From positions 1-31,514 of IMG/VR virus record IMGVR_UViG_3300028027_000010: DNA of 31,514 nt, one strand, 5' to 3'. The stretch is from a virus. Below, one piece after another: positions 12,768 through 29,070 of the stretch. The notes below the pieces were generated by a model that did not search any database, was not told where the DNA came from, and was given only the letters and a program-made list of their open reading frames with translations. Each line of letters opens with the position of its first letter. Position 1 is the first letter of the stretch. A program made the translations under genes and the position numbers.

Positions 12768-13813
12768 TACACTACTGAGTTAATTGTGTCGTATGCGTAT
12801 TCAAAGTCTAGTTGGTAGTTAATCATATGCGTGTTGATGCTTTTGAATAACTCAGTTGATTTTGTATTTATCTTAACAGGTGATTTGTCTAGTAAGATTC
12901 TTTCGCTTAGCATTAGTTGTTTAATTACTTCTGAGTAGCTTTCGTTTACCCAATCGGTATTTACTTTAATCTGTTCTTTTCCGTTCGTGTTAAAGACTTT
13001 TCTTTGACCTTCTAATACATCGTAAGAAGGATAAGTTGCAGGCATTAAATTATACTCCGTGTTTTCAACGCTGATAGATTTACTACTAGCTTTAAAGAAC
13101 CACTCAGTTTGCCAAGCTCCGTATTTATTTACAAAGTCGCATCTTACAGGCGTGTATTTACATTCTCCTTTTGGTTGGAAAGTTGCAGTCCATACCGTAG
13201 TTCCTGCATTGATGATTTCTACTTTGTTTCCTGCAGTTAAATACGATGAGAATACTCTAGGATAGTCAAGCACGTTTAATGCCCCTAAAGACGAAGTATT
13301 GGTTGCACCCGTAACTAAGTTAGTATACTTAATTGTATCTCCTGAGATGTTTTCTATTGTTAAATGTCCGTAGCTTCCTGTTCCGTCTAAATAATAATTG
13401 TAAGTCCCTTGGTCAAGGTGAACTCTGAATAAGTTAGGATTAGCTCCGTCCGTATAATTTCCGTACCCTTCGTATGCTCTGTAAGTTAATGTAGAACCAA
13501 ACTGAACGAAAGCTCCTGTTGTTTTCTTGTATGTTTTGACACCTACCCAACACCATTGAGCTGATGGATTCGCAGCACTCGTTGTTGTGATATTCTGTAA
13601 AGCATTGTGATTAATAAACTCACGAATGTAAGGGGATAAATCGTAGTAAGTTGCAGGAGCAGTTGATGAAGGTATTTGCTTACTTAATGTATAAGCAGGA
13701 GAAGCAGGCATTGACGTACTGTTTCCGTTCCAAAGAAAGATTTGAATTTGCGTAGCAGTTTGTGATGCTTCGTTTATTGTTAAAATGTAAGGTGAACGTG
13801 CGAAAATTGCCAT
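12767..13813 (-). CDS. Tail structural protein, probable distal-tail/baseplate component
   Basis: 348 residues starting MAIFARSPYILTINEASQTA, which continues into an IQIFLWNG strand. It is beta-rich with many aromatic residues. YYDLSPYIREFINHNALQ (57-74) and the C-terminal NTNGKEQIKVNTDWVNESYS are a pattern I associate with conserved Bacteroidetes phage tail proteins of unassigned role. It overlaps the hub-like gene by one base and abuts the gp10-like tail completion gene. Position between the completion protein and hub fits a distal tail protein. No enzymatic motif is seen. Confidence 0.65.
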   Translation of the reverse strand: MAIFARSPYILTINEASQTATQIQIFLWNGNSTSMPASPAYTLSKQIPSSTAPATYYDLSPYIREFINHNALQNITTTSAANPSAQWCWVGVKTYKKTTGAFVQFGSTLTYRAYEGYGNYTDGANPNLFRVHLDQGTYNYYLDGTGSYGHLTIENISGDTIKYTNLVTGATNTSSLGALNVLDYPRVFSSYLTAGNKVEIINAGTTVWTATFQPKGECKYTPVRCDFVNKYGAWQTEWFFKASSKSISVENTEYNLMPATYPSYDVLEGQRKVFNTNGKEQIKVNTDWVNESYSEVIKQLMLSERILLDKSPVKINTKSTELFKSINTHMINYQLDFEYAYDTINSVV

Positions 13814-14323
13814 CTATTTTTGTTTAGGAAATACTGTGTTGTTAAATAATTTTATTGCGTCTACTCCAAATGCTTCTACTAAGTCTTGAGGTAAACGTTT
13901 GATTGCTTTCTCAAATGGTTTAGTAAAGAACAAACTAGGTTTGATTCCATTAAAGTAAACTGAACGTGCAATAGCAAAAGACAAAGACTTTCTGTTTTTA
14001 AACTTTCCTTTTTCTCTTGGTGCTAATCCTTTACGAACTACCCACTTGTCAAATGCTTTTGCTGGAGGCATTTTGTTCGTGTATTTGTAGTCCGTGTTGT
14101 ACTTCTTTTTAATACCTGAAACTCCTTTGTCCTGATAGAATCCGTACTCCTCCATTGAGAAGTCCATCTCAAATGAATTAGGATTAGCTTTGACATTACC
14201 TTTAATAGAGTTATACAAACTCTTAGAGGAGTTCTTTCCACCCCTCGTAAGATTTGCTTTAGACTGACTAACTACATAATCTCTAAACTTGTTTAACTCT
14301 ATTTGTAACTCACTCTGCTTCAT
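13814..14323 (-). CDS. Tail completion/neck protein (HK97 gp10-like)
   Basis: 169 basic residues with the layout of the HK97 gp10/tail-completion family: an N-terminal helix (LQIELNKFRDYVVSQSKANL), SKSLYNSIKGNV, a strand with EYGFYQDKGVSGIKKKY (59-75), the PPAKAFDKWVV helix, AFAIARS-like LSFAIARSVYFNGIKPSLFF (113-132), and a closing amphipathic helix, VEAFGVDAIKLF. The YGxYQDxG segment is diagnostic in my experience of the family. It should seal the head-tail joint or tail end. It overlaps the upstream 45-residue ORF by 14 nt. Confidence 0.72.
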   Translation of the reverse strand: MKQSELQIELNKFRDYVVSQSKANLTRGGKNSSKSLYNSIKGNVKANPNSFEMDFSMEEYGFYQDKGVSGIKKKYNTDYKYTNKMPPAKAFDKWVVRKGLAPREKGKFKNRKSLSFAIARSVYFNGIKPSLFFTKPFEKAIKRLPQDLVEAFGVDAIKLFNNTVFPKQK

Positions 14324-19795: not shown

Positions 19796-20326
19796 TTATT
19801 TTATTAGTTCAAAATCTTGGTTTAAATAATCTTTGTAGTCATCTCCTACTGCTTCTTGCAATCTTTTCTTACATCTTTTTAATGTATGGAATATTGATCC
19901 GTGATGTATTTTTGTAGCTTTAGACATTTCTCTCATTGATAAACCTGTTTTACGGTATAAATCAAATAACATTTTATCGTAATGATGCCAAGTTTTTGTT
20001 TCTTTATCAATTAAATCTTCTATTATGTTAAATGCTTCTTCTTTACATAAATTGTTTTCTTCATACTTTAAATTGTATAAAGTTTCTAATGATATAAACT
20101 CTATTTTATTCATTTTGTTCGTGTCACCACAAACGTTTCTTAAAATACTCCAAATATAAAATAAGTTTACTTGGCCAGATTCGTTTAGTATTTTTTCCTT
20201 TTGTCCATACTTATGTACTCGCAAATACATTTCTTGAACAATGTCCTCAGGATATTCACAACCAAATGTAGTAGCTATTTTTACCCATTCATTATGTTGC
20301 TTTGATACTTTTTCTAATAGTTCCAT
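19796..20326 (-). CDS. Sigma-factor-like transcription regulator (ECF-type, phage)
   Basis: 176 residues. Residues 27-66, with EDIVQEMYLRVHKYGQKEKI, resemble sigma region 2 (the VQExFLRx helix that contacts the -10 element). Residues 113-157, LSMREMSKATKIHHGSIFHT then LKRCKKRLQEAV, resemble region 4, a DNA-binding HTH. It has no region 1 or 3, like an ECF sigma. It starts the late block just after the 20.4-kb terminator and has its own TAAATTTG -10-like element plus a TGCAACG box. The late genes carry a repeated TGCAACA-N16-GTTTATA motif, so this protein is the obvious candidate reader. Assignment as sigma-like is good; the target link is inference. Confidence 0.75.
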   Translation of the reverse strand: MELLEKVSKQHNEWVKIATTFGCEYPEDIVQEMYLRVHKYGQKEKILNESGQVNLFYIWSILRNVCGDTNKMNKIEFISLETLYNLKYEENNLCKEEAFNIIEDLIDKETKTWHHYDKMLFDLYRKTGLSMREMSKATKIHHGSIFHTLKRCKKRLQEAVGDDYKDYLNQDFELIK

Positions 20327-25109: not shown

Positions 25110-25402
25110 AATTCTACGTTTTTAAATTTAAGTTCGTGTTCTAATTCCTCTATTCTTTTCTTTAATTCTCCGTTTATATGCAGACATCTGTTGATTTCTC
25201 GTCCGTGTAAGCGTAGTTCTGTCTCAAGTTCAACTATTGCTAACTGCACCTGCTTTAAATCGTTCTCAGTTTGCTTAGCTCCGTTTATGTAAGCTGCAGC
25301 TTCAGGTCTTTTTTCCTGTAGTTCTTCTCTTGTTAGCTTTACTTTCCAAATGTTCTTTTGTATAAGTCCTTTGATGTAAAGTAGTTTTAATCCTATGTCC
25401 AT
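25106..25402 (-). CDS. 98-residue coiled-coil protein
   Basis: MDIGLKLLYIKGLIQKNIWK at the start, then a basic stretch and a long helix: NDLKQVQLAIVELETELRLH (46-65), then REINRCLHINGELKKRIEEL and EHELKFK. Heptad-like leucines and charges suggest a coiled coil. It overlaps the ATPase gene by 10 nt upstream. A helper of the replicative ATPase is conceivable from position only. Confidence 0.65.
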   Translation of the reverse strand: MDIGLKLLYIKGLIQKNIWKVKLTREELQEKRPEAAAYINGAKQTENDLKQVQLAIVELETELRLHGREINRCLHINGELKKRIEELEHELKFKNVEL

Positions 25403-26325
25403 TGTGTATTTGCTTTTATTGCGTTTAACTTTTGTTCAATCATTGTCATTTGTATTGGTGCTTTAGGTCTTAATTGTTTTAAAGGATCAACTCCATTAAT
25501 TGTAAATCCCAAACCATTATTAAAATCACACATAATAAAATCATCTAATGCAGTAATTTTTCCTCCTGTGTCTGTGTCTTTAACTTTTTCTACAGATATT
25601 AAAGTTACAAATCTCATTGTATCATGTTTTACTAATCTATGAATAACAAACATATCATCACAACGATTTAAAAAAGCTTTTCCTCCTTCTATGTGATCCT
25701 TCATCGGAGGTTTTAAATGACCTTTCCACATATGTTGATCTGGATATAAGTTTCCTGATCTTCCAGATTCAGTATTTGGATGCGTATTTATGTAAATTGA
25801 TTTCCCTGTTTCGTTTACAAATTGCCTTGCTGCATTCAAAAACTTGTAGTTACCTTCATATCCCATTTCTCTATCAAGTCCAGTGTAAGGGTCAATCAAA
25901 CAAACTTGAGCATCTGACTTACGAAATATATCAAATAATTCAGCGGGTTTGTAAAGTTTTGAATTATCAACAAAATCAAAAAACTGTTCTATGTAAGTTG
26001 AGTAAGATAAAATTTGTTGTTCGTTTAATTCTTTGTAAGGTTTACCTGAATAAATCTGAATCATATCTCGCAATATCTGACCGTATTGATTTTCGCCTGA
26101 CCATAAAATAAATTTAATATCATGCTTTAAAGCAAGAGAAAGAAAGTACCAATTAATCCAATAAGTTTTTCCTACATTATCGTGACCAAGTATTATGTTT
26201 AATTGCTTTGGCTTGTATCTAAGATTATCATCTAATGAACATTGTAATCCTAAACCTTGTTTAATGCGTCCTGCTTTGTAGTCTAGCAAATATTGCTGCG
26301 TACTACCTTTACTTAATATATCCAT
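25393..26325 (-). CDS. DnaB/RecA-type ATPase, probable replicative helicase
   Basis: Motor of phage DNA replication, likely unwinding DNA. 310 residues containing essentially one RecA fold: Walker A GHDNVGKT (47-54), Walker B VCLIDPY (141-147) with Asp145, a Gln/His sensor block, YINTHPNTESGRS (178-190), and SVEKVKDTDTGGK (about 258-270), the DnaB-like hairpin before the C-terminus. It lacks the DnaB N-terminal primase-binding domain, so it is shorter than DnaB. It is preceded directly by the replisome organizer, whose gene overlaps it by 17 nt. A RecA/KaiC-type accessory ATPase is the alternative. Confidence 0.8.
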   Translation of the reverse strand: MDILSKGSTQQYLLDYKAGRIKQGLGLQCSLDDNLRYKPKQLNIILGHDNVGKTYWINWYFLSLALKHDIKFILWSGENQYGQILRDMIQIYSGKPYKELNEQQILSYSTYIEQFFDFVDNSKLYKPAELFDIFRKSDAQVCLIDPYTGLDREMGYEGNYKFLNAARQFVNETGKSIYINTHPNTESGRSGNLYPDQHMWKGHLKPPMKDHIEGGKAFLNRCDDMFVIHRLVKHDTMRFVTLISVEKVKDTDTGGKITALDDFIMCDFNNGLGFTINGVDPLKQLRPKAPIQMTMIEQKLNAIKANTQWT

Positions 26326-26926
26326 TTTGTCTTGCTTTTTCCACTAAAGGATCGTAAATCATTTCTTGTTGCGTAGGCTTACTCCAGTTTCTAATTGCAG
26401 CTTTCCAATCTTTCATTTTGTTTTTACCAACCATCCATCCTTTTGATTCATAAAAGTTAATAAATTTATTAGCGTCCACTTCAACATTATTTTGTGAACA
26501 ATACTCAAGAATTTCTGTAAAATTAGGAGGTATAAATATACTTCTTTCTTTCTTATCCTTCTTGTTACTGGTCACTTGTTGGTCAATCGCTGGTCCTTCG
26601 TTGGTCATTTCGCTGGACTGTAGTTGATATTTCTCATAGTTAACTACTTCAATTACAGTACCTTGCGAGTTAGTTTTGATGGTCAATTCGTTGGTCATTT
26701 TTAGCTTGTTTAGTGCTGTTCTCACTTGACGTACTGTTAAACCTGTTTGATTAGCTAGAATATCGCGGGAAGTAATTACACTACCCGCTTTAAGTTCTAT
26801 TCCTTTATAACGTTTTTCCTTATGGTTAGCCGTTAAAATAAGATGCATAAAAACACGAAACGAATTATTATCAGAATACCATTCCCAATCTAAAATCTGT
26901 CTATGTATTTTTATCCAGCCACTCAT
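26309..26926 (-). CDS. Replisome organizer / helicase-loader-type replication protein
   Basis: Initiator or loader for phage replication, partner of the ATPase downstream. 205 residues: an N-terminal winged-helix part (SGWIKIHRQILDWEWYSDNN, about 2-21, then FRVFMHLILTANHKEKRYKG and GSVITSRDILANQTGLTVRQ to about 67), a polar linker, then FYESKGWMVGKNKMKDWKAA then IRNW (about 159-182), a block typical of phage replisome organizers. The C-terminal end meets the ATPase gene with a 17-nt overlap. No primase or polymerase gene is seen, so host enzymes are probably recruited. Confidence 0.8.
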   Translation of the reverse strand: MSGWIKIHRQILDWEWYSDNNSFRVFMHLILTANHKEKRYKGIELKAGSVITSRDILANQTGLTVRQVRTALNKLKMTNELTIKTNSQGTVIEVVNYEKYQLQSSEMTNEGPAIDQQVTSNKKDKKERSIFIPPNFTEILEYCSQNNVEVDANKFINFYESKGWMVGKNKMKDWKAAIRNWSKPTQQEMIYDPLVEKARQNGYIK

Positions 26927-27646: not shown

Positions 27647-28284
27647 TTGTTTTTATTTAAAAAGTTATTGTATAAATGCATGTTAGAAGTAAAATGATAA
27701 TACCAACCTACTGTGATACCTAATTTATCTGCTACCATTTCTTGAAGTTTGCTAAAACAATATTGATCATTGCAAAAGCCAAACCATAAATCATTTGATC
27801 TCATATTAACTGTCATACATAGTAAGTTATTTACTATTTGAAAGTGAATTGAAAGAGTACACGGAGTATCGTTTTTATACGAATCTATTTCTTTGCCATC
27901 ATAAATTGAAATAACTGCTTGTCTAGTGCTAGGGTCTTTAATTAATTTATCAATAATTAAGTTTAATTGATTTTTTCTTAACCATTGCCAACCGTAATTT
28001 GATCTTACTAAACCATTTTCATCCATATGATTTAACCAAATTGGTGCACGCTTTGCTATTTCAGTTGCATCTGGATCTCCGCTTAAGTACCATTGCCATT
28101 CAAAATCTGCATAAGTTTTATTCCATTTTCTGTAAGTAGAAGTAATTTCATTATCAGCAGGATTTTCTAAGTAAAAACCTATGTTAAACAAAACCAACGA
28201 GTTTTTGTAAATCAAACCTTCATTTGATATTTCTGTATAATAATAATCAAATGCTTCCTGCGCATTAATAAATTTATTTTTCAT
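27643..28284 (-). CDS. Thymidylate synthase-family enzyme, possible dCMP (hydroxy)methylase
   Basis: Transfers a one-carbon unit to a pyrimidine nucleotide using a folate. 213 residues against about 264 for E. coli ThyA. The catalytic Cys is Cys142 (DTPCTLSIHFQI), RSND is at 162-165, and HLY at 203-205 closes the pocket; all three are offset by exactly 4 from E. coli Cys146, Arg166 and His207/Tyr209. At the position of Asn177, which reads the base of dUMP, there is Asp173. Asp there is typical of dCMP hydroxymethylases such as T4 gp42. It lies beside MazG. Family membership is strong; substrate is inferred. Confidence 0.82.
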   Translation of the reverse strand: MKNKFINAQEAFDYYYTEISNEGLIYKNSLVLFNIGFYLENPADNEITSTYRKWNKTYADFEWQWYLSGDPDATEIAKRAPIWLNHMDENGLVRSNYGWQWLRKNQLNLIIDKLIKDPSTRQAVISIYDGKEIDSYKNDTPCTLSIHFQIVNNLLCMTVNMRSNDLWFGFCNDQYCFSKLQEMVADKLGITVGWYYHFTSNMHLYNNFLNKNK

Positions 28285-28537
28285 TGTAATAATTGTTTAA
28301 ACTTCCTAAATACGCAACAGCATCCAATAAATTATCTTCTTTATGATTATAAGATTCTCTAGACAACTTTAAAGCTATTAAAGCTTTGTACATAAACACT
28401 GCGTCTACATTTGTTCCTGTCATTCCACTTAAAATTTGTGCTGATCTTTCCATACCTTCAACAAAAGGACCATACTCTCTTGCTTTTTCTTCTGATCGAA
28501 GATTCACAATTTCATTTGCTTTTTCTAAAATATTCAT
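28274..28537 (-). CDS. DUF6378-like phage protein (MazG-like helical fold)
   Basis: 87 residues: MNILEKANEIVNLRSEEKAR, then EYGPFVEGMERSAQILSGMT and VFMYKALIALKLSRESYNHK, EDNLLDAVAYLGSLNNYYNE. The YG...F...A......K..L.....KLSRE...HK.DNL.D...Y pattern is the widespread phage DUF6378 family, a helical group usually near nucleotide genes. The start is downstream of the interlocking RNA structure at 28.55-28.64 kb, so its expression may be controlled there. It overlaps the ThyA-family gene by 11 nt. Confidence 0.75.
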   Translation of the reverse strand: MNILEKANEIVNLRSEEKAREYGPFVEGMERSAQILSGMTGTNVDAVFMYKALIALKLSRESYNHKEDNLLDAVAYLGSLNNYYNEK

Positions 28538-28551
28538 ATAAATTAATTTAA

Positions 28552-28641
28552 ATAAAAAACCCCTGCATATCCACGAGGCTCGACTTTCGTTTCAATACAA
28601 GGGTTAATAATACCTTTTGAGTTTATGGTGTCGAGCCAACT
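28552..28641 (-). ncRNA. Candidate structured RNA with interlocking helices and terminator
   Basis: Lies in the 122-nt gap between coding genes. Hairpin 1: GAGTT/AACTC (28642-28638 with 28623-28619) enclosing GGCTCGAC. Hairpin 2: AACCCTTG (28605-28598) with CAGGGGTT (28565-28558), 8 pairs including one G-U that works only for the minus-strand RNA, enclosing GTCGAGCC and followed by TTTTTT. The two loop octamers GGCTCGAC (28637-28630) and GTCGAGCC (28584-28577) are perfectly complementary, giving a kissing-loop or pseudoknot fold. A promoter box lies just upstream. It could be a small RNA, an attenuator or a riboswitch-like leader for the nucleotide genes. Known RNA families were not recognised. 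Confidence 0.65.
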
Positions 28642-28647
28642 CATTTA

Positions 28648-28679
28648 CAAATATAATAATTATTCTGTTACACTTTCAA
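28648..28679 (-). promoter_or_regulatory. Promoter TTG-N21-TATATTTG before the structured RNA
   Basis: -33 TTG at 28679-28677, -7 TATATTTG at 28655-28648, 21 nt apart, matching the Bacteroidetes consensus. The predicted transcript starts near 28641, at the first base of the RNA structure. It overlaps the last codons of the 136-residue gene. Confidence 0.7.
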
Positions 28680-29070
28680 TTTCATTTAATTTTTTATATC
28701 TACCTTCTGCAATCCATCTTTTGACACGTAGTAACTTGTAAAGACTTGTGCAGTTGTTTACATCGTCAATAATGTTTCTAGGCTTGTGAATGTACTTAGA
28801 ATCAATCAGGAACACCATATACTCTCTTATCACATCCAAGTATTCGTCTTTGTTGTACTCTAGAAGATTCTTGTGAGTGTTTATATTATGGATTACACTA
28901 GCGTGATGCTGATTAAAGTAAGAACCTATTTCGTTAAATGTTAGTTCCTCTTTTCGTAGTTGATTCATAAGAAAACACTTCTTGTAAATGTGCTGCTTCT
29001 TTCTGCATCGTTTGTTTAGTTCGTCCCTTTCAATAAGGTAAGTTACTCGTTCTATTAAATCGTTTTTCAT
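28660..29070 (-). CDS. DnaA domain IV-like helical DNA-binding protein
   Basis: 136 residues, basic. The middle, KCFLMNQLRKEELTFNEIGS then YFNQHHASVIHNINTHKNLL (32-71), resembles the DnaA domain IV DNA-binding signature (a helix, then GxxxxxxxHxSVxxxxxxxx); the HHASVIHNI core is close to the DHSTVxxA motif. No ATPase domain is present, so it is not a full DnaA. It may bind the phage origin or a promoter, or recruit host DnaA. It is followed by the interlocking RNA and the nucleotide genes. Confidence 0.72.
   Translation of the reverse strand: MKNDLIERVTYLIERDELNKRCRKKQHIYKKCFLMNQLRKEELTFNEIGSYFNQHHASVIHNINTHKNLLEYNKDEYLDVIREYMVFLIDSKYIHKPRNIIDDVNNCTSLYKLLRVKRWIAEGRYKKLNEIESVTE

Follow-up and report, generated by a model that had tools for sequence, protein, structure and literature searches.

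A self-complementary putative leader RNA pointing to an undescribed replication switch in viruses of Flavobacterium-type bacteria

A unit of roughly 90 nucleotides (nt), found in more than 100 IMG/VR loci as well as in isolated Flavobacterium and Cellulophaga phages, points to an undescribed RNA switch for replication in viruses of Flavobacterium-type bacteria. We analysed one carrier over its whole length of 31,514 nt (IMG/VR record IMGVR_UViG_3300028027_000010; hereafter the window). The best explanation, to which we assign a probability of about 0.6, is that the unit serves as a promoter-attenuator leader and at the same time produces a terminated small RNA; a terminator loop (B) would act on an upstream seed (A), and on a third copy (C) where present, setting expression of the replication operon. 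This agrees with two of the possibilities raised in an earlier sequence-only reading of the window, an attenuator or a small RNA. That the element is a structured RNA unit is close to certain, and that it controls the replication operon is quite probable.

All parts of the promoter-RNA-terminator unit described in the sequence-only reading were located on the minus strand between positions 28679 and 28554 (Table 1), which is also the strand from which it had proposed that the RNA is made. The −7 box begins 5 nt past the stop codon of a DnaA-like gene. Both this box (TAnnTTTG) and the terminator U-run were requirements of our scans, and both are also seen in relatives collected without them. 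The promoter stands as first read, but transcription more likely starts at 28645–28643 than at the 28641 originally given, because the latter would remove part of the 5′ arm of hairpin H1. Likewise, G-U pairing is present as claimed, but the terminator stem holds two such pairs rather than one. The A and B octamers are perfect complements placed in crossed order between the two hairpins. Nested folding of the window element gives a modest signal (z = −1.7), because ordinary folding cannot score crossed pairs.

Table 1 Features of the element and its neighbouring genes in the window
Feature	Position	Strand	Description	Basis
Bacteroidota-type promoter	28648–28679	−	−33-like TTG 28679–28677, N21, TATATTTG −7 box 28655–28648	Sequence
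Hairpin H1	28618–28643	−	GAGTT 28642–28638 with AACTC 28623–28619, plus U-A pair; loop carries seed A	
Seed A, GGCTCGAC	28630–28637	−	Octamer in H1 loop; complement of B	
Linker AAAGGUAUUAUU	28606–28617	−	A/U-rich	Alignments A4–A6
Hairpin H2, intrinsic terminator	28558–28605	−	AACCCTTGTAT 28605–28595 with ATGCAGGGGTT 28568–28558	
Parts of H2			B in the apical loop, above upper stem ACGA/UCGU, internal loop UGAA/GGAU and lower stem AACCCUUGUAU/AUGCAGGGGUU	
Anti-seed B, GTCGAGCC	28577–28584	−	Terminator apical loop	
Terminator U-run	28554–28559	−	Six T	Sequence
Upstream gene, DnaA C-terminal-domain-like protein	28660–29070	−	136 amino acids	Pfam Bac_DnaA_C, E = 4e-6, below curated cut-off
First downstream gene, DUF6378	28274–28537	−	ATG 16 nt past U-run; gap without promoter	
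DnaD-like helicase loader	26309–26926	−		PHROG 2514, E = 2e-26
Replicative helicase-like ATPase	25393–26325	−		PHROG 18375/239

The crossed pairing, which had been proposed as a kissing loop or pseudoknot, is borne out by covariation among relatives. We aligned 16 sequences of class 1 and included the pseudoknot in the annotated structure; this alignment omits elements of the GAGTCTCA type and two more, the majority of which are out of register in a larger alignment (A4). Standard pairs occupy 98.4% of its cells, and 22 of 28 pairs have changed on both sides. Compensatory double changes fill 119 cells, compared with 34 (s.d. 4.8) in shuffles, and pairing drops to 48.5% or less when the partners are slid by one column. 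All four helices covary: the H1 stem carries compensated changes, as do the 11-base-pair (bp) and 4-bp stems of H2, and in the A:B helix 99.2% of cells are paired, with double changes in six of eight pairs. The covariation that the sequence-only reading had suggested looking for in homologous regions is therefore present, A:B included. That reading had also named loss of octamer complementarity in relatives as evidence against the unit, and the opposite is observed: the octamer is wholly replaced and its complement follows. Outside the A:B pairs, AGUA and GAA lie on the two arms of the B hairpin in all 26 class-2 elements, a combination that we take to be the loop-E (sarcin-ricin) consensus. 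In class 1, most elements carry a UGAA/GGAU purine loop at this position, and the AUUAUU of the linker is found again in both classes (alignments A4–A6).

About 26 distinct A words are known once sub-words among 32 seed strings are merged, and each has its complement in B. Across a set of 82 distinct elements, which still includes two likely spurious members (L207(−) and L239(−)), the longest A:B complement for the 32 strings averages 7.1 nt within a type, where values of at least 6 are imposed by selection, and 3.6 nt between types; an A of one type thus rarely fits a B of another. A search with the DnaA-C-like neighbour protein gave 41 IMG/VR loci, nearly all with the element layout 3′ of that gene. 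Many of these loci have an alternative octamer, namely CATCCGAC, GAGTCTCA, CCTTCGAC, GGTCTCAC, CATCTCAC, GTTGCAG, GAGCAG or AAGCAG, with a matching complement in H2. One locus (L006), with a 90% identical neighbour protein, has a different seed; another (L038), at 64% identity, has the same seed. Such swaps in close relatives and sharing by distant ones would follow from exchange of the unit as a cassette. A further locus (L033, 3420–3530) joins H1 of one type to H2 of another, keeping seven of eight pairs with one mismatch and one G-U, and looks like a natural recombinant between two seed types.

Genomes usually carry one unit, ahead of replication-initiation genes either directly or after a few genes. 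A promoter-anchored scan that demanded the promoter, the U-run and A:B pairing was applied to 25 genomes or long contigs, most of which yielded one element in the same place, the replication module; snork6-1 and G027 each yielded two elements with different seeds. The snork6-1 units (12880–12980 and 13915–14030) lie 1 kb apart, the first preceding a NUMOD4-type endonuclease gene. A 2.2-Mb Markov control sequence produced 11 matches, one of them with at least 8 seed bases. Among the scanned loci, matches in L158, L166(−), L215(−) and L240(−), together with the two named above, are likely spurious. The scan found no element in the P12024S stretch and failed on G010 and G018 (one a recombinant, one a promoter variant), both of which were recovered by a model (R1) built without the A:B pairs.

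Isolates carrying the unit are Cellulophaga phages phi19:3 and phi13:2, Lillamyvirus snork6-1, Elemovirus elemoC and Flavobacterium phage 11b. These were reached through the downstream protein; searching INPHARED at the DNA level with the element gave no match, probably because seeds and stems vary. Among 299 Flavobacteriaceae genomes, R1 uncovered a new, out-of-sample element (L284) in a single genome. It lies on a contig of 3.5 kb, its A and B match perfectly over 10 nt, and the adjoining gene is by eye replication-initiator-like. A second model (R2) recovers phage 11b, again out of sample (E = 0.004), and gave no match in 299 Flavobacteriaceae genomes, a set that holds no positive control. 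The DnaA-like protein has no relative in GTDB genomes, the element is absent from the DUF6291 loci of five Bacteroidota genomes, and none was seen at Riemerella and Vibrio phage loci encoding a DUF6291 protein. Among open-licence PMC articles, no papers on such an RNA in Bacteroidetes phages were found.

Downstream of the window element, the gene order is DUF6378, ThyA-like, MazG and one unassigned gene, followed by the DnaD-like loader, which is probably the replication gene of this operon, and the helicase. Over the 82 elements the median gap from terminator to ATG is 23 nt and a promoter box occurs in one; with so short a gap and no promoter, the downstream genes must depend on read-through. 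The first gene varies, and several of those tested are replication initiators (DnaD-like, O-like, primosomal and DUF6291); in many further contigs the unit precedes the gene for the DUF6291 replication protein. The recurrent neighbour is a replication-initiation module (DnaD-like, DUF6291 or O-like), which in the window comes four genes further on. Because the loader and helicase follow the nucleotide genes here and the first genes differ elsewhere, the nucleotide genes are probably incidental neighbours. That the leader senses a ligand and belongs with nucleotide or folate genes, an idea raised from the window alone, is not supported, since the element precedes many unrelated first genes while the replication-initiation module recurs. 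The upstream protein of the window resembles only the DNA-binding C-terminal domain of DnaA, with no ATPase part, and phi19:3 and phi13:2 likewise have a DnaA-annotated gene close to the unit. Elsewhere in the window (19796–20326), a phage protein with a weak match to a sigma-factor PHROG (phrog_1740, E = 2e-6) might drive late promoters.

In 23 of the 82 elements the A word occurs again as C, with a length of at least 6 nt, compared with a mean of 0.64 and a maximum of 5 elements in 2000 seed reassignments, a statistic that ignores kinship of the elements. C sits a few nucleotides past the terminator stem, immediately 5′ of the start codon of the next gene. C copies are found for seeds including AAGCAG, GAGCAG, AGGCAG, GGGCAG, GTTGCAG, GTCGCAG and CCTTCGAC, as well as GTGCAG in L196, and at DUF6291-gene loci the leader differs according to element type. 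The window contains no sense-strand copy of its octamer of 7 nt or longer outside the element. Given that most elements, that of the window among them, lack C, a translational step cannot be general.

The loci L219–L222 (about 1360–1485 in L219) read GGACTGAT/ATCAGTCC/GGACTGAT for A/B/C, with C overlapping the ATG of a DUF6291-like gene; they have a TTGACA-type, sigma-70-like promoter and no U-run. A GC-richer phage unit lies ahead of an HNH-endonuclease-like gene (L149, 3240–3370; L151, 2650–2775; L153; L155), and between L149 and L151 the A/B pair changes in a compensatory manner from GTGAGACC/GGTCTCAC to GTCAGACC/GGTCTGAC. The A-B-C architecture may extend beyond Bacteroidota phages.

We propose that the element is at once the leader of the replication-initiation operon and a small-RNA gene. 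Its promoter would yield an RNA of about 90 nt that mostly ends at H2, and downstream genes would be fed by read-through of H2, or of transcription arriving from further upstream. Loop B would recognise seed A through a kissing helix of 6–10 bp, the pairing established by covariation, either with both partners in a single molecule (cis) or with a completed small RNA contacting a leader still being transcribed (trans). Where C is present at the start codon, the complementary B loop could cover that copy and block translation of the read-through mRNA. With more genome copies and more small RNA, less replication protein would be made; such negative feedback in trans we hold tentatively, at somewhat less than even odds. 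The variable seed would keep each regulator self-specific. Since A:B pairing does not overlap the terminator stem, the helices are not mutually exclusive, as they would be in a classical attenuator. A bolder and on balance doubtful proposal is that in this large, undescribed phage RNA family a hypervariable seed represented three times (loop A, complement in B and start codon C) gives each phage an orthogonal replication thermostat of its own, the seed serving as an incompatibility type between co-infecting phages. As regards immunity, the poor recovery from host-family genomes (the one R1 match in 299, on a 3.5-kb contig) argues against a mainly prophage role, but phi19:3 encodes a tyrosine recombinase, so that such a role may still apply.

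Other readings of the unit account for parts of these data. Its own promoter and terminator, the two differently seeded elements in snork6-1 and in G027, and the seed swaps among close relatives would all suit a free-standing small RNA that uses its A or B loop to target RNAs of the host or of a rival phage in trans, with location reflecting timing only. This is unlikely, however, given that the start-codon copies and the short promoterless gap link the element to its own operon and that the window offers no further sense-strand copy of the octamer. The kissing fold could instead be a pocket or binding site through which a ligand or protein sets termination, as the AUUAUU linker and the internal loops might suggest, both being conserved (class 1 has UGAA/GGAU; in class 2, all 26 elements have the AGUA/GAA loop E). 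Yet downstream genes are widely varied, the variable A and B together with the C copies favour base-pairing as the signal, and the two classes have no large invariant unpaired core in common, making a sensor quite unlikely. A riboswitch would combine a conserved aptamer with a metabolic gene class, whereas these elements have hypervariable seeds and varied first genes.

Simple covariation of all helices, and the lack of C in most elements, could also be expected of a merely well-built terminator or stable small RNA that kissing protects or strengthens while its seeds drift neutrally with compensation. The promoter directly 5′ of the element, the C copies that follow seed changes and the usual restriction to one unit per genome, within the replication module, render this improbable. 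A function at the level of DNA, for example as an origin of replication or a site of recombination, would fit the adjoining DnaA C-domain and replication genes and the cassette exchange among relatives, but the G-U pairs, oriented promoter, U-run and RNA-like stem covariation leave it very little credence. Least credible of all is that the unit encodes a short protein: in the window the type A frame is open (SWLDTINSK...ETKVEPRG) and has an ATG, but an ATG-started frame runs through B in only 10 of 82 elements, one-base indels shift it and the helices covary, and we rejected it.

Control of phage genes by a self-complementary leader RNA is known from a few enterobacterial phages. If the promoter-attenuator reading is true, Bacteroidota phages hold a widespread and apparently independent version, perhaps used during lytic growth. 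The natural library of about 26 seed pairs would allow direct tests of loop-loop specificity, of phage incompatibility and of how such regulators evolve, and might supply orthogonal RNA switches ready for use in hosts that have few genetic tools.

Among known families, Rfam 15 gives no match in the window at the gathering threshold; a permissive scan of the element scores best with drum RNA (13.1 bits versus 43 needed), and 13 related loci contain tRNA only. Membership of the C4 antisense RNA family (RF01695) was rejected, with no gathering-score match in the window or the 13 loci and none in the permissive element scan. Plasmid copy-number RNAs of the ColE1/pT181 type share loop-loop recognition, variable seeds, replication control and incompatibility-like specificity. 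Those systems use counter-transcribed RNAs, whereas here both partners lie on one strand, in one transcript. C4 of phages P1 and P7 is a leader-encoded small RNA whose specificity loops cover the ribosome-binding site of its own operon, and variation in these loops gives different target specificity (PMC5320573). The present element would likewise give a small leader RNA with variable specificity loops, but its fold is different and no antirepressor gene was seen. IsrK of Gifsy-1 also combines a short, self-terminated RNA with a read-through mRNA on which that RNA acts in trans; it activates an antirepressor operon, and the account consulted describes no kissing A:B terminator for it (PMC4825925).

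Closest in layout is phage P4, in which pairing in the order seqA, CI RNA (seqB) and seqC controls the phage's own replication genes (PMC4825925). Both systems run from a promoter through A and a complementary B, and in part of our set also through a downstream second copy, C, to replication genes. Here B is complementary to an upstream A, a second copy follows B in 23 of 82 elements (absent from the window), and the element is positioned before replication initiators. In P4, CI arises by processing of a longer transcript and functions in lysogeny, whereas in our element B occupies an intrinsic terminator loop that kisses H1, and C lies at a start codon and is often absent; the element is missing from five Bacteroidota-genome loci that carry the downstream gene, and it has no Rfam match. 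By analogy, we hypothesize that the Bacteroidota phage unit resembles P4 CI in function.
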